Below are positions 1 through 9,455 of a stretch of DNA of 10,891 nucleotides, in pieces. The first letter of the stretch is position 1. Every line of letters starts with the position of its first letter. Source of the DNA: an uncultured Eubacteriales bacterium (lineage in GTDB: Bacteria; Bacillota_A; Clostridia; Christensenellales; Aristaeellaceae); the NCBI GenBank assembly GCA_902775835.1, contig CACYNZ010000101.1, forward strand, positions 1-10,891, read 5' to 3'. A program made the position numbers and the translations under genes. A model generated the notes under the pieces. That model ran no database searches. It was not told the DNA's origin and saw nothing but the letters and a program-made list of their open reading frames with translations.

Positions 1-31
1 AAGATATCAGGAATTGAGAATAGTAGAAAGA

Positions 32-74
32 GCGAAAGCACCTCGATTTTCATGACCCCATCGGTGCCTTTCGC
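32..74 (+). promoter_or_regulatory. Strong 5' hairpin upstream of the lipoprotein gene
   Basis: GCGAAAG (32-38) pairs perfectly with CTTTCGC (68-74), and CACC (39-42) pairs with GGTG (63-66), leaving one bulged C at 67. This gives an 11-bp stem that ends 20 nt before the lipoprotein start. No T-run follows, so it is not a standard intrinsic terminator. It is more likely a leader-RNA structure, or the end of an upstream transcript. Its 3' arm overlaps a second possible hairpin, TTTCGCC (70-76) with GGCGGAAA (81-88), which would cover the weak Shine-Dalgarno sequence at 80-85. A regulatory role is inference. Confidence 0.5.
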
Positions 75-94
75 CAGAAAGGCGGAAAATAGAT

Positions 95-1351
95 ATGAAA
101 TATAACAGTTTAAAAAAAATCTTCGTACTGTCAGCGGCAATCGTTTCGGCTATGACACTTAACGCATGCGGGAATGCGTCTTTAACGACTCAGGAATATA
201 ACAGGAAATCATCTGCCGGGTCATATGATCATTCACATGACGCAGCTGCCGGATATAATAACACCACTGAATATAACCAAACGACCGTGAATAATGACAC
301 CTCTGAAGATAACCAAACGACCGTGTATAATGACATCACTGAATATAATGAAACGACCATGAATAATGACACCACTGAATATGATGAAGCGACCGTGAAT
401 AATGACACCACTGAATATGATGAAGCGACCGTAAACAATGACACCACTGAGTATGATGAAGCGATCGGTTATGACGGCGCAATGGAATACGATGACTCCC
501 CCGTATATTCAGACTCAGAAGGATACAACCGTTCTTCTGAATATGAAGATTTTGACGGCAATGAGGATACGGACGGACCCGTAGATCCTGCCGAATATAA
601 AGATATGGCTGGATATGATGCATACGAGGATTGCGCAGAATATAACCCGAATCAGGATCTGCTTTTCAATATCAGGGATATCAGCAGCCGTTCGGATCCG
701 GAGCATCCACAACAGGTGATTCAGTTCGATGTGACCAATAATGGCTCCAATGTATTATCTTTCCGGCCGACCGTGACGGGGTATAAACAGTACCGGGATG
801 ATTATGGAGATGTCTACACGGAACCGGAATCCGATTGTATTGAATACAGACAGACCTATGAAGACATGATGGCAGGCTGCGCCTTCGCCAATAAATTTAC
901 CAATGATGAACGTGTGGCTTTTCTCCAGCCCGGAGAAACGAGAACCTATCAGATCCGCTTCGGATTAAAGGAAGCAGGGCTTCCCTATACGGGCATTCTG
1001 ATTTCCGCATCGGATCCGGGATGGAAAACAACGGCGGAAGAAGCGGAAACGTCAGGAGATATGTATGTAGCGTATGGAAGCAATTGCTCCTCCGTTCTTC
1101 TGGATGATCATACAATTGCCTTTACCAACAACACGGGACGATATCTGGAAACTGCCAGAATATTCTATTCATATCCGGACGGACCAGATGAGACCGATTT
1201 CCATTTTATAGAAATCCATAATATTGCTCCCGGAGAAACCATAACTGCTACGAGTGAAGGGGACTATGAATTCTATGGATATAACAGAAGTCTGATGAAT
1301 ATTGAAGCTTATGCCGTGGATACGGAAAAAGAAAGCATGGTGACCGGATAA
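95..1351 (+). CDS. Repeat-containing surface lipoprotein of unknown function
   Basis: A secreted lipoprotein of 418 aa. The N-terminus has a charged start (K2, K7, K8), a hydrophobic stretch and a lipobox LNAC with the modified cysteine at C25 followed by Gly, so signal peptidase II processing and membrane anchoring are expected. Residues 54-137 form seven tandem 12-residue repeats of the type NNDTTEYDEATV. Together with the acidic, Tyr-rich stretch up to about 185, they look like a flexible cell-wall-spanning stalk. Residues about 188-410 look like two beta-sandwich modules. Each has a 'FDVTNN' or 'IAFTNN' strand and later a 'PGET' turn (near 282-286 and 383-387), as in extracellular Ig-like folds. 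The start codon has only a weak upstream AGGCGG at 80-85, but the signal peptide supports it. The next gene starts 52 bp downstream and is probably co-transcribed. I do not recognise the family; adhesion, ligand binding or sensing are all possible. Confidence 0.85.
   Translation: MKYNSLKKIFVLSAAIVSAMTLNACGNASLTTQEYNRKSSAGSYDHSHDAAAGYNNTTEYNQTTVNNDTSEDNQTTVYNDITEYNETTMNNDTTEYDEATVNNDTTEYDEATVNNDTTEYDEAIGYDGAMEYDDSPVYSDSEGYNRSSEYEDFDGNEDTDGPVDPAEYKDMAGYDAYEDCAEYNPNQDLLFNIRDISSRSDPEHPQQVIQFDVTNNGSNVLSFRPTVTGYKQYRDDYGDVYTEPESDCIEYRQTYEDMMAGCAFANKFTNDERVAFLQPGETRTYQIRFGLKEAGLPYTGILISASDPGWKTTAEEAETSGDMYVAYGSNCSSVLLDDHTIAFTNNTGRYLETARIFYSYPDGPDETDFHFIEIHNIAPGETITATSEGDYEFYGYNRSLMNIEAYAVDTEKESMVTG
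254..505 (+). repeat. 36-bp tandem coding repeat, seven units
   Basis: Seven in-frame 36-bp units encode 12-residue repeats (residues 54-65, 66-77, 78-89, 90-101, 102-113, 114-125, 126-137). Units four to six (362-469) are almost identical at the DNA level, and the outer units are diverged. This points to recent expansion by slippage or recombination in the middle of the array. The reading frame is kept throughout, so length can vary without breaking the protein. Confidence 0.85.
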
Positions 1352-1403: not shown

Positions 1404-1955
1404 ATGCTTGTGACAGCCATCAGACATTTTACAAGGAAAGCATTTCTTCTGGGAACGGAACATCCGGTTCTGTCGGAACTGAAAGCAAGCGGAATTCTAT
1501 CGGAATGTGGAAACGGCAGGTACCGGATCCGTACACGGGAAGCGCCGAATTCAGGAGAAACAGCAGAAAAGGGTGATTTCCTTCTGTTTGACCAGAAAGG
1601 CAGCCCTTATCCGGTGAAACGGGAATATTTCAGAAACCATTACCGGCCTGTACGGGAAGGACCTCCGGATCTGTATAAAACGATTCCCGAAACGATCCGG
1701 GCATGGACCGACAGGGAACCTGTCACAGAAGAAATCCGCTGGCTTCTGGATCACGGAAAACTGGAAATTCAGAAAGACCTTTTTTCCTGTCGGTATACTG
1801 CCTGCTTGTGGGGAACAATAGAAACCGCTCCGGAAAATGCAGTGATCCTGCTCTATTCCATAGATCGAAAACATGACGGAACCATCCGGGACATCGATTT
1901 TAATTTCATCGATGCCCCGGAATTCAGGGCTAAATATCAGATCGATGAACCATGA
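1404..1955 (+). CDS. Uncharacterised protein with a PGDYG-like motif
   Basis: A soluble protein of 183 aa if started at ATG 1404, which has GGAAGG at 1388-1393 about 10 nt upstream. In-frame TTG (1377) and GTG (1380) starts are possible but lack a good ribosome site. There is no signal peptide or membrane helix. The middle reads KGDFLLFDQKGSPYPV and continues KREYFRNHYRPV. This resembles PGDYG-type small proteins, which carry a GD-Y/F-x-x-x-x-x-G-x-x-YP-V/C-x-x-x-x-F-x-x-x-Y pattern. The C-terminal part (about 95-183) has Trp, Glu and Asp-rich segments of unknown type. It lies 52 bp after the lipoprotein gene on the same strand. Its last 19 bp overlap the end of the opposing RyR-domain gene. 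The function is unknown, and the PGDYG resemblance is by eye only. Confidence 0.65.
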   Translation: MLVTAIRHFTRKAFLLGTEHPVLSELKASGILSECGNGRYRIRTREAPNSGETAEKGDFLLFDQKGSPYPVKREYFRNHYRPVREGPPDLYKTIPETIRAWTDREPVTEEIRWLLDHGKLEIQKDLFSCRYTACLWGTIETAPENAVILLYSIDRKHDGTIRDIDFNFIDAPEFRAKYQIDEP

Positions 1956-4900
1956 GTGTCAGAAGTTCTGGAAAACCATGCCAGATTCAGAATGGAAGCA
2001 GTCTGCCGGATCACATCCGCATCCAAAGACTGGAAGAAGCGGAAGCCATCTTCCGTTTTCTGATAGGCCGCGAATCGATGATCAGGCCGGAAGGATTCCC
2101 CGTTCTGATCCTGCGAATAGGCATTCACACGGTACTCATAATCCAGCCGGCGCTGAAGCTCTGTCAGATCATCCCATGAACAGATGCAGGGATGAATTTT
2201 TGCAATCTGCAGTACATGACCGGGTGCACCGTTCCGGATATACTGAACTGCCTGCTCAAAATCCATCGCTCCGTTCCGGTCGACCGTTCCTGACCAGCCC
2301 CGGCTGATCATATAACGGCGCCAGCGCAGATGCTCAAATTTTTCCAGCTCCTCCAGTACGAACGAATTTTCTTCTCCCGGTTTTTCCGGGTCAGGATACA
2401 GACAATGCAGAAACTGCTGCCCCAGGTTCCGGCGCTGATCGGAATTCCACCAGGCATCGGCATCCTGAATAAACCAGGCATCCGGAAAGATATTTTCCAC
2501 AAACAGACGATAGGGAAGGCTGGCTGCTCCGGAGAGAGAACTGTCCCGCAGATAGAGCCTGTTAAAATAGTGCGCCAGAGCGGCATAGATCTGTGCAGTA
2601 TCGGAAACTGATGCATGGCTGTAGGCCAGATGAATGCATTCGGCTGCCTGTTCCGCCGCTGTTCTGCCCAGACTGTCCCAGCTGTACCGTTCTGACAAAG
2701 AACCGAACATCACAAATCCGTAATTGTTAAACCATTGATTCGAGTGATGCTCTCCCTTTGGAACAAGCAGTTTTTCTGCCAGCCCGGAAAAAGAAGGATC
2801 CTGGCAGTGCACGGCGATCACAGGGCGTACGGAAGAAAGATTCTGAAGCCGCCGTGTCCGGACACGCATGCGGATCCCCTCCTCCCGGATCTGAGAAGCC
2901 AATGCAAGATTTTCCAGATCATTTCCGGTATCAACGATGTAGTAGAGCAGATCTCCGGAGATCTCCATCCTGTCGATGGCATCCCGTAAGGAAGAAGATT
3001 GGAAGTCATAGGTCTGATATTCCAGGGATACCGGTGACACGGCATCATCTGAAAAAACGATGAGATCGTTCTCTTCCTTCCGGAATCGCCTCACTTCCGA
3101 TGAAGAGTGGAAAGAAGGCCATGCGGAATCATCCGAGAATGTTTTTCTGTCCGGGATGACATAGTCTTCCATGCCTGGACTGGCAGCTGCCATTTTGCGG
3201 CGGATATCGGTGGCATACGGAGACAGGAGGGTGATTCTGGTCCGGAGATTTTCTTTCTGCACAGGAAGAGAAAAGATCTCCTGCAAAAGACGGATGGCCA
3301 TGGTGTTGTCCGGATTTGAGCTCAGAATCACAGGATGCAGGATCCAGTCTCGTACGCTCTCCCGTATATTCCTCCCGGTGGCGCGATAGAAATAAGGGTG
3401 CCGGGTCAGCAGCATGCGCGCAGAATCCAGAACATCATCAATCAGAAAGACACAGACAGGGACCGGATCCCATGGTCTTGCCTTTTTTAACAAATTCAGC
3501 GCCGTATCGATCAGCGGCTCCGATTTTTCTCTGCAGCACCGGATAAAAAGCTCCGCCCGTGGGATGAATGGAGTTTCTGATAACATGGCAGAGGTTCCGG
3601 AGGCATGCTGATATGCATGCAGAATCAGCAGAGCATCCCGGAGATTCTTATCTTCTTTCTCACTCAGCAAGACGTAACGGATCTGACGATCATCCTGCAG
3701 GAAAGACAGGGCATCGGATATATCCGTGCAGCAGGTCAGTGTCCAGGAGACAGGCATGGTCTGCTCCAGAATATGCGCCGGTTCATTTTCCTCATTTATG
3801 ATACAGAGACCGGGAGTTCCCCCCGCGGCCCGTACGGGCATCTTTAGAATATCCGGACCGGAAATATTGCGCCTTGCTTTTTCACATCCGAAAAAATAAG
3901 CTTCCCGAAAGATATCATCTACAGAAAGAAAGGATTCCGGGATCGGACAAGCTCCGGTATCCGATTCACAGCAGCAGGCCAGAAGATACAGAGCGTCTCC
4001 TCTTGTGGAATTCTGTGCAAAGTAGCAGCGTTCCAGAACATCTGTCACCAGAGCATAAGCCTCTGCATAGCGGCAGTCATGAATGAATTCTTCTGCTTTT
4101 AAGACGGCTTCTTCCGCTTCCAGATCTTCATTTCTTTTTTTAGTGGTCAGAAAGTCCCCGGTAATTTCCGTAAAAAGCTCCTCAGATGCAGAAAAAGTTA
4201 CGTCTGCAGTTTCCACATCCGGAGACACTGTACGGGAAGAAAAATCCAGTATGCTTGCGCAGGGATTTTTCAGGATATAGTGAACCGCTTCAGCCAGCCG
4301 GTCTGCCGGGAACAGAAGCCCGGCCAGATGGTCTGTCATCATCCTGTATTTTACAGCTTCCTCTCTGTGGTTCCACAGATAGTAAGTGGAAGCAACAAGG
4401 GAAAGAACAGCCAGGACGACTGCAAGAGAAAAACCTGAAGGAATCTGTATTTCTCCGGATTCGGTCCGGCACCCGAGTGCTGTCGGGAGATCGAAAGCGG
4501 AAAAGGAAAAGTCGGTCCTGTAGTCCCAGAGATGAGCGCCGGTATTTCGCTTTTTGTCACAGGAAATGTCCGGTCCGGATGTGGGTGCATCACTGCTGAG
4601 CAGGATCCTGAGATGCCGGGAGAAAGTTTCCCGCTGCGTGTCATCCTGATTCTGCAGAAGGAGATCCCAAGCCTGTGCGAGTTTTTCTGTGAAAGGATAT
4701 TTTTCCGGAGAGTAGGGTTTGCCGGTGACCGGATCCGAAGTGCTGCGCAGAAGCAGTCCCGCTATCTGCAGGCAGCTTTTTCGTCCGGACGCACTGCCTC
4801 CGAAAAAACGTGTTCTTGTTGCGCCCCTGGAGATCCGTGCAAGCGTGTCTCTTCCGACATCCGTAAGATTTTCATCGGAAAACGCTTCTTTGATGAGGCG

Positions 4901-4960
4901 AACACCGTCATCCTGACTGCAGCCTGGCGGGATCAGATTATTCCAGCAGATTGTTCTCAT
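1937..4960 (-). CDS. Membrane-anchored Rossmann/RyR-domain protein
   Basis: A 1007-aa protein, second in the TIR operon, starting 27 bp after the TIR gene stop with AGGGGAG (4965-4971) just upstream. Residues 1-176 are an unrecognised domain without a signal peptide. One transmembrane helix lies at about 177-196. Residues about 285-362 look like TPR or Sel1-type helices. Segments near 384-475, 574-602 and 671-722 have Rossmann-like strand-helix character; 'YYIVDTGNDLENLALASQIR' resembles TrkA-N/RCK-like nucleotide-binding folds. The C-terminus carries the bacterial RyR-type signature: FEHLRW (875-880), RGW (887-889) and KIHP (921-924) followed by a W-D-D-L segment. Net charge beside the helix is slightly more positive on its C-terminal side, favouring a cytosolic RyR end. 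In the RyR family such domains are thought to bind small ligands. I infer a receiver or effector for a signal made by the TIR partner. The N-terminal domain and exact ligand remain unknown. Confidence 0.8.
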   Translation of the reverse strand: MRTICWNNLIPPGCSQDDGVRLIKEAFSDENLTDVGRDTLARISRGATRTRFFGGSASGRKSCLQIAGLLLRSTSDPVTGKPYSPEKYPFTEKLAQAWDLLLQNQDDTQRETFSRHLRILLSSDAPTSGPDISCDKKRNTGAHLWDYRTDFSFSAFDLPTALGCRTESGEIQIPSGFSLAVVLAVLSLVASTYYLWNHREEAVKYRMMTDHLAGLLFPADRLAEAVHYILKNPCASILDFSSRTVSPDVETADVTFSASEELFTEITGDFLTTKKRNEDLEAEEAVLKAEEFIHDCRYAEAYALVTDVLERCYFAQNSTRGDALYLLACCCESDTGACPIPESFLSVDDIFREAYFFGCEKARRNISGPDILKMPVRAAGGTPGLCIINEENEPAHILEQTMPVSWTLTCCTDISDALSFLQDDRQIRYVLLSEKEDKNLRDALLILHAYQHASGTSAMLSETPFIPRAELFIRCCREKSEPLIDTALNLLKKARPWDPVPVCVFLIDDVLDSARMLLTRHPYFYRATGRNIRESVRDWILHPVILSSNPDNTMAIRLLQEIFSLPVQKENLRTRITLLSPYATDIRRKMAAASPGMEDYVIPDRKTFSDDSAWPSFHSSSEVRRFRKEENDLIVFSDDAVSPVSLEYQTYDFQSSSLRDAIDRMEISGDLLYYIVDTGNDLENLALASQIREEGIRMRVRTRRLQNLSSVRPVIAVHCQDPSFSGLAEKLLVPKGEHHSNQWFNNYGFVMFGSLSERYSWDSLGRTAAEQAAECIHLAYSHASVSDTAQIYAALAHYFNRLYLRDSSLSGAASLPYRLFVENIFPDAWFIQDADAWWNSDQRRNLGQQFLHCLYPDPEKPGEENSFVLEELEKFEHLRWRRYMISRGWSGTVDRNGAMDFEQAVQYIRNGAPGHVLQIAKIHPCICSWDDLTELQRRLDYEYRVNAYSQDQNGESFRPDHRFAAYQKTEDGFRFFQSLDADVIRQTASILNLAWFSRTSDTHGSSI

Positions 4961-4964
4961 AAGA

Positions 4965-4971
4965 CTCCCCT
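4965..4971 (-). promoter_or_regulatory. Ribosome binding site of the RyR-domain gene
   Basis: AGGGGAG on the minus strand lies 4 nt before the ATG at 4960, inside the 27-bp gap after the TIR gene. It fixes the start. The short gap, with no room for a promoter or terminator, supports a two-gene operon. Confidence 0.6.
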
Positions 4972-4987
4972 CTTTCTGTATGTCCCA

Positions 4988-7900
4988 CTAACCTGATATG
5001 TCATGGCCATCCGCCGGGCTCCGATCGGCAAATTCTCCGGCCTTCCGCATCAGTTCTTCTTTTGAATAGATCGGATACTGGTACAGCGCATACGTTCTTC
5101 CCTTATAGCCTTTACATAACAATCTGGCAGGATTTTCCTGAAAGTCCAAAACTTCATTGACCTCTGTTGAAATTCCCAGCGTATCTGTATCAAGCACCAG
5201 GAAAAGACCGGATCCTTCTCCTGCCTTACGCAGGAACAGATAGATCTGGTGGTTCGCCGCATTTTGTGCGGTCTTCATAAGGTAAGTCCCGTTGCCGCCG
5301 GAAGGAATCAGGGCAGCCGGAAAATCATATTCATCCGTAGCTGCAATGATCTTGGAAGAAAGATCAAAAACTGTAAGAGAATCCTTCGTAAAAAGCAGAA
5401 GATACCGATCGTCATTGGTGTAGGAAGCGGCAAAAACAGCGGATGACATATGCGGATATTTCATGCTGCCTATTGCTTTGCCCGTCATGATGGAATACCG
5501 GATCACACAATAATCATCTGTCACAACAGAAAATTCGTCAGCGGATTCTGCGACGGCCAGTCCCCTGGAACGGCTGATGTCTTCTTCAGCATGTATGGTA
5601 CGGCTTTCCGACGTCCGATAGTCCCACGCCAGAAAAGAGGAAATCCTGGTACTTTCATCATCCGGGTACAGTCCGGTGATCAGCCATCCGTTCTGTCCCG
5701 CTGCACACATTCCTCTCCTCTGAGATCCGGAGGGAAACGGGTAACCTTTCAGACCTTCCGTAGTTGAAACCGGCTGTCCGTTTTCATACAGGGCAATGGA
5801 AAAAGAGCCTGTTTCCTCTGTATGAACCGTAAAGTGCCGGAAGATTCCGTCTTGTCCTGCAAGACAGGCTGAGTAGGAACAGAAAGGTGATCCTTCCGAT
5901 GACAGTTCTCCAGACCGCACATTGTCATAGAATTTGAATGAAGAAGAACCGGTGTTCAGGAAGGAACCGCTTTTATCCGGAAGAAACCAGAGAAAATTCG
6001 GAACAAACGTTTTGTCTGCCACAGAGAAGGTATCTTTTTTCTGAAAAGTCTCTCCGTCCAGAAAAAAAATGTTCCCACCCGAATCCGCTGCTGCAACCGT
6101 ATTCGTCCCGGAAATCCAGGAGGCTGCGGAAATATCTTTATCGGATGTCAGCACCGTCTGTCCTTCCGGATCATGGAAAGGAACGATCCGGTAAACGGAT
6201 CTGTGATCGTTTTCCCGGATATAAAAAAGCTGATATCCATCCTTAAACGCGGAGACATACGGCCATGGAAAACGGTCCGGAGAGCAGGCTTTATATGCCG
6301 GCGTCTTGTCAACCGTCATCATGGAGTATTCCAGTCCCCCGAGGGGAAATTCGGAAGAATCAATGCCTGAATTTTCTGTAACAGCCAGACCGTATATACG
6401 GTTCTCCTCAGTATAGAGAAAGAGAGCGTTTTCCGATGCGGATACCGCCAGAATGTTCCCGTTGCGGTATACGTCAGAAGGAACGAGTTCGTCTGTAAGC
6501 AGCGAGGTCGTATTCCCTGTGATAACCGCATAGGCATCCATGGTAAAATGATCATTCCGAATCGCAAGAGGAACGATGCGGACCAGTATGTCTTCATTGG
6601 CAGATAAGCCGGATCCGGCAATCAGTTTCTGTTCAGCTTCCGTCTCTCCGCTTCTGTCAAGCATGGTCAGGACCCCGCCTCCATGCAGATCCTGATGAAG
6701 AACCAGAACCGATGTCCCGCTGTCGGAAAACGTCATATGGTAAATGGCATCGTCACCGGGTAACTCAGCTTTTTTCATACGGGTGCAAATCCCGTTTTCA
6801 TTTCCGCGAAGAAAATACCAGACCGGTTCATCCGCGCCGACAGAGTCATTCCTGAAGGCCAGGATGAAATTTTTGTGCGCCTTATCCCATACCATACAGC
6901 AGCTGGAATCATTTCGATTGTATCTCAACGGTCCGTCATCGGCTGGTATTCCCGTAGATATCGTGTGAAGGATTTCTCCGGTTTTCGAATTGCGCAGGTA
7001 GAGCGTCAGCGTGGAAGCGGAATCGTCTGCCGCGGCAAAAAGAAAGGTGTCGGAGACTGCGGAATCACATCCTTCATCACTGTACTGCCAGCTCAGCGGA
7101 TGAAAACAATCCGTCGCCCAGACGGTTTTACCTGTCTTTATCTGAATGCCTGCAGTCCATTCCGCAGCACCGGAGCAGGTCAGGATAACCACGGAGTCAT
7201 CACTGGTCCGGTATAACTGATAATAAGAAGAATCCGGATCTGTTTCTGAGGTATGCGAGATCAGATCATGGTTTTCCCAGACTGTTTCCCCGGAAGAAAG
7301 ATCGATGCAGCGAAGGTTGTTCTCTGCATCCAGCAGAATCAGAGACTTCCGGTCAGCGGTGGGGAGCATTTGCCGGATGTCGGCAGAAAGCGTACACAGT
7401 AACTGAGAACCGTACCCGTTGACATATGCGCCGGAAGCATTCACCAGGACCTGCTGTGCCCTTGCATTTTTCGGGCCGTTCGGATCGGAGGAAAGCGAGT
7501 TCAGGGCAAAGGCCATCGCCTCTGCATCATCGCCGCTATCCAGCTGAAATTCTGCGTTGTCTGCGGAAGCAAGTGCATTTTGCCGTCGTATGGAAGCATC
7601 TCTCTGAGAAATATTGATGGAATAGCGGACAGACAGCGCGGCGATGATTAGTAGAAAAGCGGCAGCGATTCCGAAAAAGACGGCATGCCGTCTGGCGCGG
7701 TATCTGCGTTCCCGCTGCCAGAGCGTATCGAAGCTGACAGAGGATAATGCAGCAAGGATCCGGACCGATTCCCTCTTAAAACCGGATGCTTTATAGTTCC
7801 CGTTTTCGTCCGTCAGATTCGCGGAGAGCGGATTGTTTTTCCGGATTACTGTGCCGTTCTCTCTTTTCACTTCCAGCAGGGGCTCCGGACAGACCTCTGC

Positions 7901-8239
7901 GGCATTGCCGGATACAAGAACAGTCAGAATATGATCGTAATCATGCGTGATAAGAAAGTACTCAATTTCTTCAAGGACCCATGCCGACTTCCGCGTCTCT
8001 TCTGAACAGATAACGATAAGAAATTCACTCTGATCCAGCGCTTCCTTCAGGCTGGTGTTCAGATCGCTGGAAAGAGAAAGCTCCGTCTCATCCCGAAAAA
8101 CAGAATAATGGTTTTTCGCAGCATCAGTTCCGGCAGTTCCCGGAAGTCGAAAATGCTCTATCACATTCTGAATTCTGGAAGCAATCTTTTTATCCTGTCG
8201 GCTGTGATGGTAGCTGATGAAAGCTTTATACCTGTACAT
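4988..8239 (-). CDS. TIR-domain membrane protein with beta-propeller ectodomain
   Basis: A 1083-aa protein using ATG 8239, which has AAGGAG 6 nt upstream. An open frame runs 32 codons further to 8335, but that stretch contains the likely promoter. Residues 1 to about 115 are a TIR domain: YKAFISYHH (4-12), FRDETELS (48-55) and LIVICSEE (74-81), then W87 with E91 four residues on. In SARM1-type NADase TIRs the catalytic Glu sits at W+4, so NAD+ cleavage is plausible. A basic stretch (R176-R184) precedes a transmembrane helix at about 186-208, favouring a cytosolic TIR and an external remainder. Residues about 219-250 are an Ala/Leu-rich helical linker of the kind that often precedes WD40 or nSTAND repeats. 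Residues about 270-1083 are beta-rich, with repeated 'D/T-G-E-T/I-x-W/H' blade turns, consistent with one or two WD40- or PQQ-like propellers. It is co-transcribed with the RyR-domain gene. I infer a sensor-enzyme; the trigger is unknown. Confidence 0.88.
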   Translation of the reverse strand: MYRYKAFISYHHSRQDKKIASRIQNVIEHFRLPGTAGTDAAKNHYSVFRDETELSLSSDLNTSLKEALDQSEFLIVICSEETRKSAWVLEEIEYFLITHDYDHILTVLVSGNAAEVCPEPLLEVKRENGTVIRKNNPLSANLTDENGNYKASGFKRESVRILAALSSVSFDTLWQRERRYRARRHAVFFGIAAAFLLIIAALSVRYSINISQRDASIRRQNALASADNAEFQLDSGDDAEAMAFALNSLSSDPNGPKNARAQQVLVNASGAYVNGYGSQLLCTLSADIRQMLPTADRKSLILLDAENNLRCIDLSSGETVWENHDLISHTSETDPDSSYYQLYRTSDDSVVILTCSGAAEWTAGIQIKTGKTVWATDCFHPLSWQYSDEGCDSAVSDTFLFAAADDSASTLTLYLRNSKTGEILHTISTGIPADDGPLRYNRNDSSCCMVWDKAHKNFILAFRNDSVGADEPVWYFLRGNENGICTRMKKAELPGDDAIYHMTFSDSGTSVLVLHQDLHGGGVLTMLDRSGETEAEQKLIAGSGLSANEDILVRIVPLAIRNDHFTMDAYAVITGNTTSLLTDELVPSDVYRNGNILAVSASENALFLYTEENRIYGLAVTENSGIDSSEFPLGGLEYSMMTVDKTPAYKACSPDRFPWPYVSAFKDGYQLFYIRENDHRSVYRIVPFHDPEGQTVLTSDKDISAASWISGTNTVAAADSGGNIFFLDGETFQKKDTFSVADKTFVPNFLWFLPDKSGSFLNTGSSSFKFYDNVRSGELSSEGSPFCSYSACLAGQDGIFRHFTVHTEETGSFSIALYENGQPVSTTEGLKGYPFPSGSQRRGMCAAGQNGWLITGLYPDDESTRISSFLAWDYRTSESRTIHAEEDISRSRGLAVAESADEFSVVTDDYCVIRYSIMTGKAIGSMKYPHMSSAVFAASYTNDDRYLLLFTKDSLTVFDLSSKIIAATDEYDFPAALIPSGGNGTYLMKTAQNAANHQIYLFLRKAGEGSGLFLVLDTDTLGISTEVNEVLDFQENPARLLCKGYKGRTYALYQYPIYSKEELMRKAGEFADRSPADGHDISG

Positions 8240-8245
8240 ATGAAA

Positions 8246-8251
8246 CTCCTT
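8246..8251 (-). promoter_or_regulatory. Ribosome binding site deciding the TIR gene start
   Basis: AAGGAG on the minus strand is 6 nt before the ATG at 8239. The upstream in-frame ATGs at 8335 and 8290 have no comparable site. The 8239 start also places the TIR signature directly at the N-terminus, as is usual for this family. Confidence 0.75.
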
Positions 8252-8291
8252 CACGGATGGCGTTTTCACAGGGTTAGCATCTTCTGCCATC

Positions 8292-8300
8292 AGTATAACA
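8292..8300 (-). promoter_or_regulatory. Putative extended -10 promoter of the TIR operon
   Basis: The minus strand reads TGTTATACT, an extended -10 (TG-n-TATACT), about 53 bp before the TIR start. No good -35 is visible at 17-18 bp, which is typical for extended -10 promoters. It would let the TIR operon be transcribed separately from the upstream ada gene. Assigned by eye only. Confidence 0.4.
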
Positions 8301-8399
8301 GAGAAGCAGCATGTTTTGATATACAGGCCAGCCAAAAGAGCAGGTCCAGATTCATCAGGCTTCCTTATTCATTTGCGATTTCATGCCGGTATCCCTCTC

Positions 8400-9455
8400 T
8401 CATACCGCATACCTTTTTTCCATCGTAAGAAGGAACTTCTTTGCCTCGATACCGGCAGCGTATCCCGTGAGACTCCCGTTGGCGCCAATGACACGATGGC
8501 AGGGAATCACGATCAGAATCGGATTGCAGTGATTTGCCATTCCTACTGCCCGGGAGGCTTTTTGATTCCCCGCCATCGCAGCCAGCTCGCCGTAGGTCCT
8601 CGTCTCGCCATAAGGAATTTCCCGCAGATGTGACCAGACATTTTTCTGAAAATCCGTTCCTTCCGGGCTCACCGGCAGATCAAAGTCTCGTCTCTCTCCG
8701 GAAAAATATTCAGTGAGCTGCGCCTCGCATTCCTTCACCAGTTCCCCTGGAGAATCGTCAGATATGACCCTGTCAACAGGAATCTGATCAGCCTGTGCAC
8801 CTGCATCTGAGTTTTCCCGTCCTGCCTGCTCCACACAGAGAACAGCATCCTGCGATGCGATGATTCTTAAGGGACCGATCGGTGTGTCCAGAACATTCCG
8901 GCTGATGTCGTCCGCAAAAATCTGCCGATATCTGGCCGGCGTCATTCCGGTCTGCCGGCGGAAATGATCATAAAATTCCGACAGATTTTCATATCCTGCC
9001 ATGCCGGCTGCGTCCGGAATTTCAGAGCCGTCCTGCAGCAGCTGTCTCGCTGCAGCGATTCTTACCCGGATCAGATATTCTGACGGCGTGAGATCATATT
9101 TCTGCTTAAAGACCTGCGTCAGATGCTTTCTGCTCACACCCATCCCTTTCATATCTCTGCCAAGCCGCAGCCGGTCGCTGAAATGCTGATCCAGCAATTC
9201 CTTTGTTCTCTCCGAAAGTTCCAGAGCCGGATCGTACTGCAGCAGATCCGGGCGGCAGCGTTTGCACGGGCGGAAGCCTGCCGTCTCCGCCTCTTCTCTT
9301 GTTCTGAAAAAGACAACATTCTCTCTCCTGGCAAGTTTTGATTTACAGGACGGACGGCAGTAAATGCCTGTTGTCTTCACCCCGTAGAAAAACTTTCCGT
9401 CGCAGGAGGCATCACAGTCTCTGACTGCCTCCCACATCTCATCATCGTTCATCAT
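8400..9455 (-). CDS. ada: Ada: methylphosphotriester/O6-methylguanine-DNA methyltransferase and regulator
   Basis: A 351-aa bifunctional alkylation-repair protein of full Ada length. The N-terminal Ada domain has the four zinc cysteines C33, C37, C64 and C67 (YCRPSC and RPCKRC); in this family one of them accepts the methyl group from a phosphotriester. An AraC-type helix-turn-helix domain spans about 83-178. The C-terminal methyltransferase domain (about 188-347) has the PCHRV acceptor motif with C319, followed by a GYAAG segment. The protein demethylates O6-methylguanine in DNA and, once methylated on its N-domain, activates transcription of repair genes. ATG 9455 is followed at once by ATG 9452. 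AAGGAG (9460-9465) lies 4 nt and 7 nt from them, so 9452 may be the true start. A weak promoter-like TATATT sits just upstream, near 9480. No strong terminator is visible before the TIR gene, so some read-through is possible. Confidence 0.95.
   Translation of the reverse strand: MMNDDEMWEAVRDCDASCDGKFFYGVKTTGIYCRPSCKSKLARRENVVFFRTREEAETAGFRPCKRCRPDLLQYDPALELSERTKELLDQHFSDRLRLGRDMKGMGVSRKHLTQVFKQKYDLTPSEYLIRVRIAAARQLLQDGSEIPDAAGMAGYENLSEFYDHFRRQTGMTPARYRQIFADDISRNVLDTPIGPLRIIASQDAVLCVEQAGRENSDAGAQADQIPVDRVISDDSPGELVKECEAQLTEYFSGERRDFDLPVSPEGTDFQKNVWSHLREIPYGETRTYGELAAMAGNQKASRAVGMANHCNPILIVIPCHRVIGANGSLTGYAAGIEAKKFLLTMEKRYAV

Follow-up and report, generated by a model that had tools for sequence, protein, structure and literature searches.

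A TIR–propeller gene beside a gene for an RCK-like ring protein with a divergent RyR domain: a possible nucleotide signalling system in an uncultured Eubacteriales bacterium

The window analysed here is a stretch of 10,891 nucleotides on contig CACYNZ010000101.1 (GCA_902775835.1) of an uncultured Eubacteriales bacterium, and all coordinates below are positions in it unless another locus is named. It carries two neighbouring genes, one encoding a TIR protein (P0001) and the other a protein (P0002) that ends in a divergent RyR domain. The locus raises the question of whether the first protein makes a nucleotide signal that the second receives. We found that TIR and RyR genes lie together in other genomes, and we read P0001 and P0002, perhaps together with a third protein, as a Thoeris-like nucleotide-signalling module with a different receptor. 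Taken as a whole, this mechanism has in our judgement about an even chance of being right.

TIR and RyR genes lie together across genomes

The linkage was assessed by locating TIR_2 matches in genomes (G numbers; loci are given L numbers) carrying an RyR (PF02026) or P0002-family match. Genome G001, which carries the window DNA (100% of the window's sampled words are shared, on a contig of 18.4 kb), and G207, a weak family-profile match (E 6.4e-4), were excluded, and adjacency was defined as a TIR domain at a distance of at most 3 kb, which leaves out G434 (3,036 bases) and G604 (TIR 5 kb away). A TIR domain was adjacent to an RyR or P0002-family match in 14 of the 43 genomes, where random placement would predict 0.22, some of the contigs being short (L004, L012). 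By draw, adjacency was observed in 4/14 genomes of the PF02026 class draw, 2/16 of the family-profile draw, 3/11 of the genome-contig draw, and 5/7 of the new genomes in the phylum draw. As a control, HsdR (PF04313) was located 41 times, spread over 22 of 44 genomes; none of these places was adjacent to a TIR match, and only two shared a contig with one, at 25 and 32 kb. Furthermore, the adjoining TIR gene was the sole TIR_2 match in 11 genomes (G001, G599, G606, G608, G472, G393, G319, G387, G894, G909, and G974). Among the 196 genomes of the class, a TIR gene was present in 13 of the 14 with an RyR match over the Pfam cut-off, compared with 52 of the 182 others. P0001-like profile matches occurred in 20 of these 196 genomes (many partial, some covering the TIR part alone), namely in 9/14 with and 11/182 without such an RyR match or, counted by genus, in 7/11 and 6/121. 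The initial annotation of this DNA had named rare co-occurrence of the homologues as a ground for refutation, and the outcome is divided: they lie adjacent far above the random expectation, but 29 of the 43 genomes have no TIR domain within 3 kb, five of these having no TIR match at all.

The RyR proteins found near TIR genes differ in architecture. Genes of the P0002 type lie near TIR in the window, L002, L009, and L011 (convergent), as well as in L007, where one gene intervenes; the order is TIR–RyR in the window and RyR–TIR in L002. Shorter RyR proteins with multiple transmembrane segments stand beside TIR in L037, while in L036, L107, and L108 they are followed by a stand-alone RyR gene and then by TIR. 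Judging by family-profile matches, an RCK part is probable in L036 and L037, a reading that does not extend to L107 and L108. Stand-alone RyR proteins were found near TIR in L041, L043, and L112, and other RyR proteins in L116, L117, and L120.

Domains of P0001 and P0002

Both open reading frames claimed by the initial annotation are present on the minus strand (Table 1). The P0001 stop and the P0002 ATG are separated by 27 bases, and a purine-rich ribosome-binding-like site precedes P0002. A longer, TTG-started frame for P0001 is unlikely because AAGGAG sits before the ATG at 8239. The TIR domain of P0001 passes three Pfam cut-offs (ThsB_TIR 2.4e-10, TIR_2 1.8e-8, and TIR 6.4e-6) and is matched weakly by the PADLOC ThsB models (best 5.7e-4). 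Plant Roq1 aligns to it (E 8.9e-4) with E91 opposite Roq1 E86, which we take to be the catalytic residue, and W87 and E91 are unchanged across all four aligned proteins. The sequence comparison thus agrees with the earlier proposal of a putative NADase glutamate at W+4. The membrane helix of P0001 is strongly hydrophobic (Kyte–Doolittle value, KD, 2.7) and has a counterpart at the equivalent place in all three relatives checked (P0027, P0028, and P0029). Because an arginine-rich stretch precedes it, the TIR domain likely lies inside the cell and the propeller outside. The proposed propeller ectodomain is weak in P0001 itself, where PQQ_2 remains below the Pfam cut-off (E 0.0056), but PQQ_2 passes it in the relatives P0027 and L105; P0001 therefore shows the layout of TIR domain, transmembrane helix, and PQQ/WD40 region with the last part recognised through its relatives. 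The TIR–propeller gene of L002 shifts reading frame near its end (~15930-15960), by assembly error or decay.

P0002 had no match to Pfam, PADLOC, or NCBIfam families at E<=1, and neither RyR nor RCK was matched in a PDB sequence search with P0002 or when its family was compared with Pfam and PDB. In contrast, fold comparison of the P0002 model gave a tandem RCK ring (residues 383-826) as the best fold match, and plain Foldseek with the whole model placed the DMI1 ring at the top (E 0.046). Regarding the C-terminus, PF02026 was not matched in P0002, nor in any of the 20 rows of family set A1 at E<=5. The P0002-family profile and PF02026 match overlapping places in G245, G273, and G324. A second-look structural aligner ranked RyR structures 1-3 and 5 among 317 re-aligned chains, with low absolute Z, and plain Foldseek with the RyR model gave no matches. 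Judged from these intermediates and the predicted fold, the C-terminus of P0002 is a divergent member of the RyR family. The initial annotation of Rossmann-like folds followed by an RyR domain thus appears right in substance, the Rossmann-like part being modelled as an RCK ring. The multi-transmembrane RyR proteins L107 (26.9 bits) and L108 (25.5 bits) fall just below the PF02026 cut-off of 27.4 bits.

A single membrane helix had been attributed to both proteins, which holds for P0001 but not as a family trait for P0002. The hydrophobic stretch of P0002 at residues 171-189 (KD 2.08) coincides with or lies beside a transmembrane-like segment in 12 of 32 family rows, including L036 and L037, which have another layout. 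In 16 of the 32 rows no transmembrane-like segment was found anywhere, and a membrane helix as a common trait of the P0002 family was rejected on that count. Shorter relatives carry 2-4 transmembrane-like segments. The shorter RyR proteins L032, L033, L107, L108, and L036 have 3-4 such helices at the N-terminus. These five are possible ligand-gated channels, and in some genomes such proteins lie apart from TIR genes.

Table 1. Coordinates of the features in the window and of the second RyR-bearing proteins at other loci.
Feature	Sequence	Residues	Coordinates	Strand	Remarks
P0001	Window	1083 aa	4988..8239	-	TIR, one membrane helix, propeller-type ectodomain
TIR domain of P0001	Window	7-112	7904..8221	-	W87 and putative catalytic E91
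Membrane helix of P0001	Window	186-204	7628..7684	-	
PQQ/WD40-type propeller region of P0001	Window	~285-1073	5021..7387	-	Approximate borders
P0002	Window	1007 aa	1937..4960	-	Helical N-terminus, TPR-like part, tandem RCK-like ring, RyR domain
TPR-like helices of P0002	Window	277-367	3860..4132	-	
Tandem RCK (KTN) gating-ring-like Rossmann pair of P0002	Window	383-826	2483..3814	-	
Divergent RyR domain of P0002	Window	From 835 (model), core ~862-991	1988..2458	-	H877, W880, H923, D980
P0003	Window	192 aa	1377..1955	+	Candidate accessory component, convergent with P0002
ada-type gene	Window		8400-9455	-	Pfam; upstream of P0001
Putative lipoprotein	Window		95-1351	+	N-terminal half with degenerate repeats; no family above the cut-off
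Second RyR-bearing protein	L003		12547-15744		
Second RyR-bearing protein	L005		15772-18642		
Second RyR-bearing protein	L008		11979-15221		
Second RyR-bearing protein	L012		609-3746		

A reader of the TIR product and the alternatives

In the mechanism that we propose, the propeller ectodomain of P0001 would sense a trigger, and the TIR domain would turn NAD+ into an ADP-ribose-type signal, i.e., an isomer of cyclic ADP-ribose (cADPR) or a relative of it, that would bind the RyR domain of P0002. Binding would reshape the RCK-like ring, because the RyR domain hangs on the kind of fold by which channels and transporters convert ligand binding to a change of shape, and would activate either the helical/TPR part at the N-terminus or an interacting effector. 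At other loci, RyR modules are carried by multi-transmembrane proteins, possibly channel-type effectors, and by proteins with nuclease-like tails. The genes, their domains and key residues, and the conserved linkage come from the sequence data; what we infer in this scheme is the TIR product, its binding by P0002, the order of events, and the role in defence.

It is a long-standing matter of dispute whether ryanodine receptors respond to cADPR directly. According to PMC13232231, cADPR has been implicated in RyR modulation and study of the RyR domain is called for; RyR domains of phages bind 2'/3'cADPR or cleave it, and the R12 domains of animal RyR have the same site. By analogy, bacterial RyR domains linked to TIR would most simply be readers or erasers of TIR products. 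Since TIR and RyR genes travel together and phage RyR domains handle cADPR signals, the producer–receiver pairing of the initial annotation appears well founded, except for the membrane anchoring of P0002, which is unsupported. A reader seems to us an evenly balanced proposition, and we prefer it to an eraser because the RyR domain sits on an RCK-like ring here and elsewhere on multi-transmembrane bodies or with nuclease-like tails, and because nine family rows lack the catalytic dyad discussed below.

If P0002 and the stand-alone RyR proteins of similar operons were erasers, they would remove the TIR signal by hydrolysis or by sequestering it and guard the host from accidental activation, in analogy to the ring nucleases of cyclic oligoadenylates, which would leave the TIR NADase itself or some unlinked protein as the effector. 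We consider this unlikely, even though the phage protein RyDEP is described in PMC13232231 as a glycosidase for 2'/3'cADPR, and P0002 keeps both members of its catalytic dyad in the MAFFT alignment, where H877, W880, H923, and D980 stand opposite H75, W78, H100, and D117 of gp78 (RyDEP). An alignment by hhalign reproduces the HxxW part but has D940 at the aspartate position, and D980 is not placed at the dyad. Among 32 family rows, some of them near-identical, residues 877 and 980 are H+D in 21, Q+N in 9, H+N in one, Q+T in one, and Q+D in none. On the tree there are four changes at each of the two positions, with about three joint switches, two of them independent pairs on well-supported branches. 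This co-change would be expected of residues that face one another, as they do in RyDEP, and speaks for D980 rather than D940, with too few events for a sign test to reach significance, and it is not a general rule, since L107 and L108 retain H with N at the second dyad place. The Q+N rows imply that hydrolysis is no family-wide need; likewise, the eight other homologues tested in the phage study (PMC13232231) did not cleave despite conservation, though six bound. The ring and the 1007-aa body of P0002 also exceed what an enzyme would need.

A further pattern was seen among stand-alone RyR proteins. The position of RyDEP H100 is T or S in all six that are adjacent to TIR (L016, L041, L043, L044, L045, and L112) and H in all four with no TIR seen nearby (L040, L042, L109, and L110), counts that ignore kinship. 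L041 and L112 were inspected once the other eight had shown the pattern, and both fitted, while L109 and L110 were checked for a nearby TIR by the P0001-type profile only. L040, whose contig carries no TIR, gives a match to animal RyR with an E-value of 5.4e-64 summed over four repeats.

We think it quite improbable that P0002 is instead a sensor or scaffold that recognises a metabolite (NAD, ATP, or ADP-ribose) or an invader via its RCK, RyR, or TPR parts, with the RyR ligand differing from the TIR product and TIR acting as the effector through NAD+ depletion (abortive infection). The partners do vary as if P0002 were the constant element and the partner the killer, with TIR next or next-but-one in L002, L007, L009, and L011 and a second RyR protein in L003, L005, L008, and L012; moreover, the titles of GsuK structure entries indicate that NAD and ADP are ligands of RCK rings. 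However, the linkage to TIR spans RyR domains of many architectures beyond the P0002 type, suggesting that what they have in common is the RyR ligand. That these are two independent defence or stress genes sharing an island, as the several TIR genes on the L005 and L008 contigs might suggest, is very hard to reconcile with the excess of adjacency, its absence for HsdR, the short gap between the two genes in the window, and the sole TIR matches in 11 genomes.

Returning to the reader, a TIR–RyR class of bacterial immunity, in which cADPR-type messengers made by TIR would be read by host RyR domains on RCK rings, channel-like multi-transmembrane proteins, and nucleases, is a tentative proposal that falls slightly short of evenly balanced.

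Accessory genes and relation to known systems

The initial annotation described a two-gene system; the pair is present but may be incomplete. In a profile search, genes of the P0003 family were found in the fetched flanks of five of 12 P0002-type loci (window, L003, L005, L007, and L009), and at three of them (window, L007, and L009) the gene is a direct neighbour. The 3' ends of P0003 and P0002 overlap by 19 bases, and L007 shows an overlapping run of TIR, P0003-family gene, and P0002-like gene. The family occurs in two of the 196 class genomes, one being G001, which is also the only one of 16 genomes of the genus with P0003. Since G285 has a P0003-family gene with no RyR gene in its fetched flanks, P0003 is considered only a candidate component. 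Additionally, at four of 11 other loci (L003, L005, L008, and L012), a second RyR-bearing protein is encoded next to or within 3 kb of the P0002-type gene. Its start looks Rossmann-like by eye, and its tail matches PADLOC CARF_PDDEXK in L003 (3.9e-13) and L005 (4.1e-6) and, just below the cut-off, Card1_endonuc in L012. It may be an effector of the same ligand, with a nuclease-like tail predicted in the three tested.

Other gene groups were noted at these loci. L106 (G312) holds a cluster at 989-17001 of a PP2C phosphatase, an RyR protein, several TIR genes, and a tubulin-like protein, as well as a gene whose 1507-aa product has weak matches of kinase and Card1-like type. In L008, a tubulin/FtsZ-like part (weak match) is fused to a TIR domain at 2847-3932. 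Beside the P0002-type gene of L005, genes at 1812-9447 encode a TraG-like ATPase, a ClpP-like protease, an OmpA-type protein, and a Card1-like nuclease (Pfam), and runs resembling this one, judged by similar start sequences only, lie beside P0002-type genes in L006 and L008.

Regarding distribution, the P0002 family-profile search of proteins yielded two proteins. P0002 relatives lie in 11 named records, ten of which carry Bacillota names, the other being from an uncultured Olsenella. The 155 pattern matches on viral contigs included no relative, P0002 was unmatched in the plasmid search, and in the family draw it was found in one of 200 genomes, namely G001. In the empty-site comparison, the nearest relative found, G595 (84% DNA identity in ada), aligns with the window over ada alone, so no clean empty site is shown.

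When compared to known systems, the locus resembles Thoeris in that a TIR enzyme, here one matching ThsB_TIR, adjoins a protein with a candidate domain for binding ADP-ribose-type signals. It differs in its candidate receptor, which is RCK-like with RyR rather than a SIR2-SLOG or Macro-TM ThsA, in the membrane helix and propeller borne by the TIR protein, and in the lack of a PADLOC or NCBIfam match for P0002, which upholds the earlier view that this is not the standard Thoeris layout. P0002 shares the H, W, H, and D residues of RyDEP in the MAFFT alignment; RyDEP, however, is a 138-aa anti-Thoeris phage protein (PMC13232231), whereas the RyR domain in the window is divergent and forms the end of a bacterial protein of 1007 aa encoded beside TIR. 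The tandem Rossmann ring fold is that of RCK/KTN gating rings (TrkA, GsuK, DMI1/CASTOR), but proteins of the P0002 type have no conserved transmembrane part, carry an added RyR domain, and give no Pfam TrkA_N match. The C-terminus of P0002 appears to belong to the same domain family as the animal RyR (R12) domains and the Bacteroides RyR protein 3nrt, from which it differs by its divergence, its insertions, and its position below PF02026 detection. Nucleases of the Card1/Can2 type (CARF-PD-(D/E)xK) resemble the tails of the second RyR protein at L003, L005, and L012 and are not present in the window.

Bacterial TIR–RyR operons were not found discussed in the available text of PMC13232231, and no description of them was found in the literature searched, where an earlier mention is possible. 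TIR signalling and RyR–cADPR binding are already known; as far as our searches reach, a host RyR/RCK protein with a conserved place next to TIR is apparently undescribed. The frequent side-by-side occurrence of such genes points to a little-known nucleotide signalling system, possibly with a role in antiviral defence. With TIR–RyR pairs, TIR immunity would gain a class of receptor in addition to SLOG and Macro, and the phage RyDEP proteins would have a host counterpart. If the proposed mechanism is true, the link between cADPR and the ryanodine-receptor domain predates animals, RyDEP proteins would be receptors that phages captured or mimicked, and bacterial operons of TIR and RyR genes would offer small, testable systems in which to study that link.

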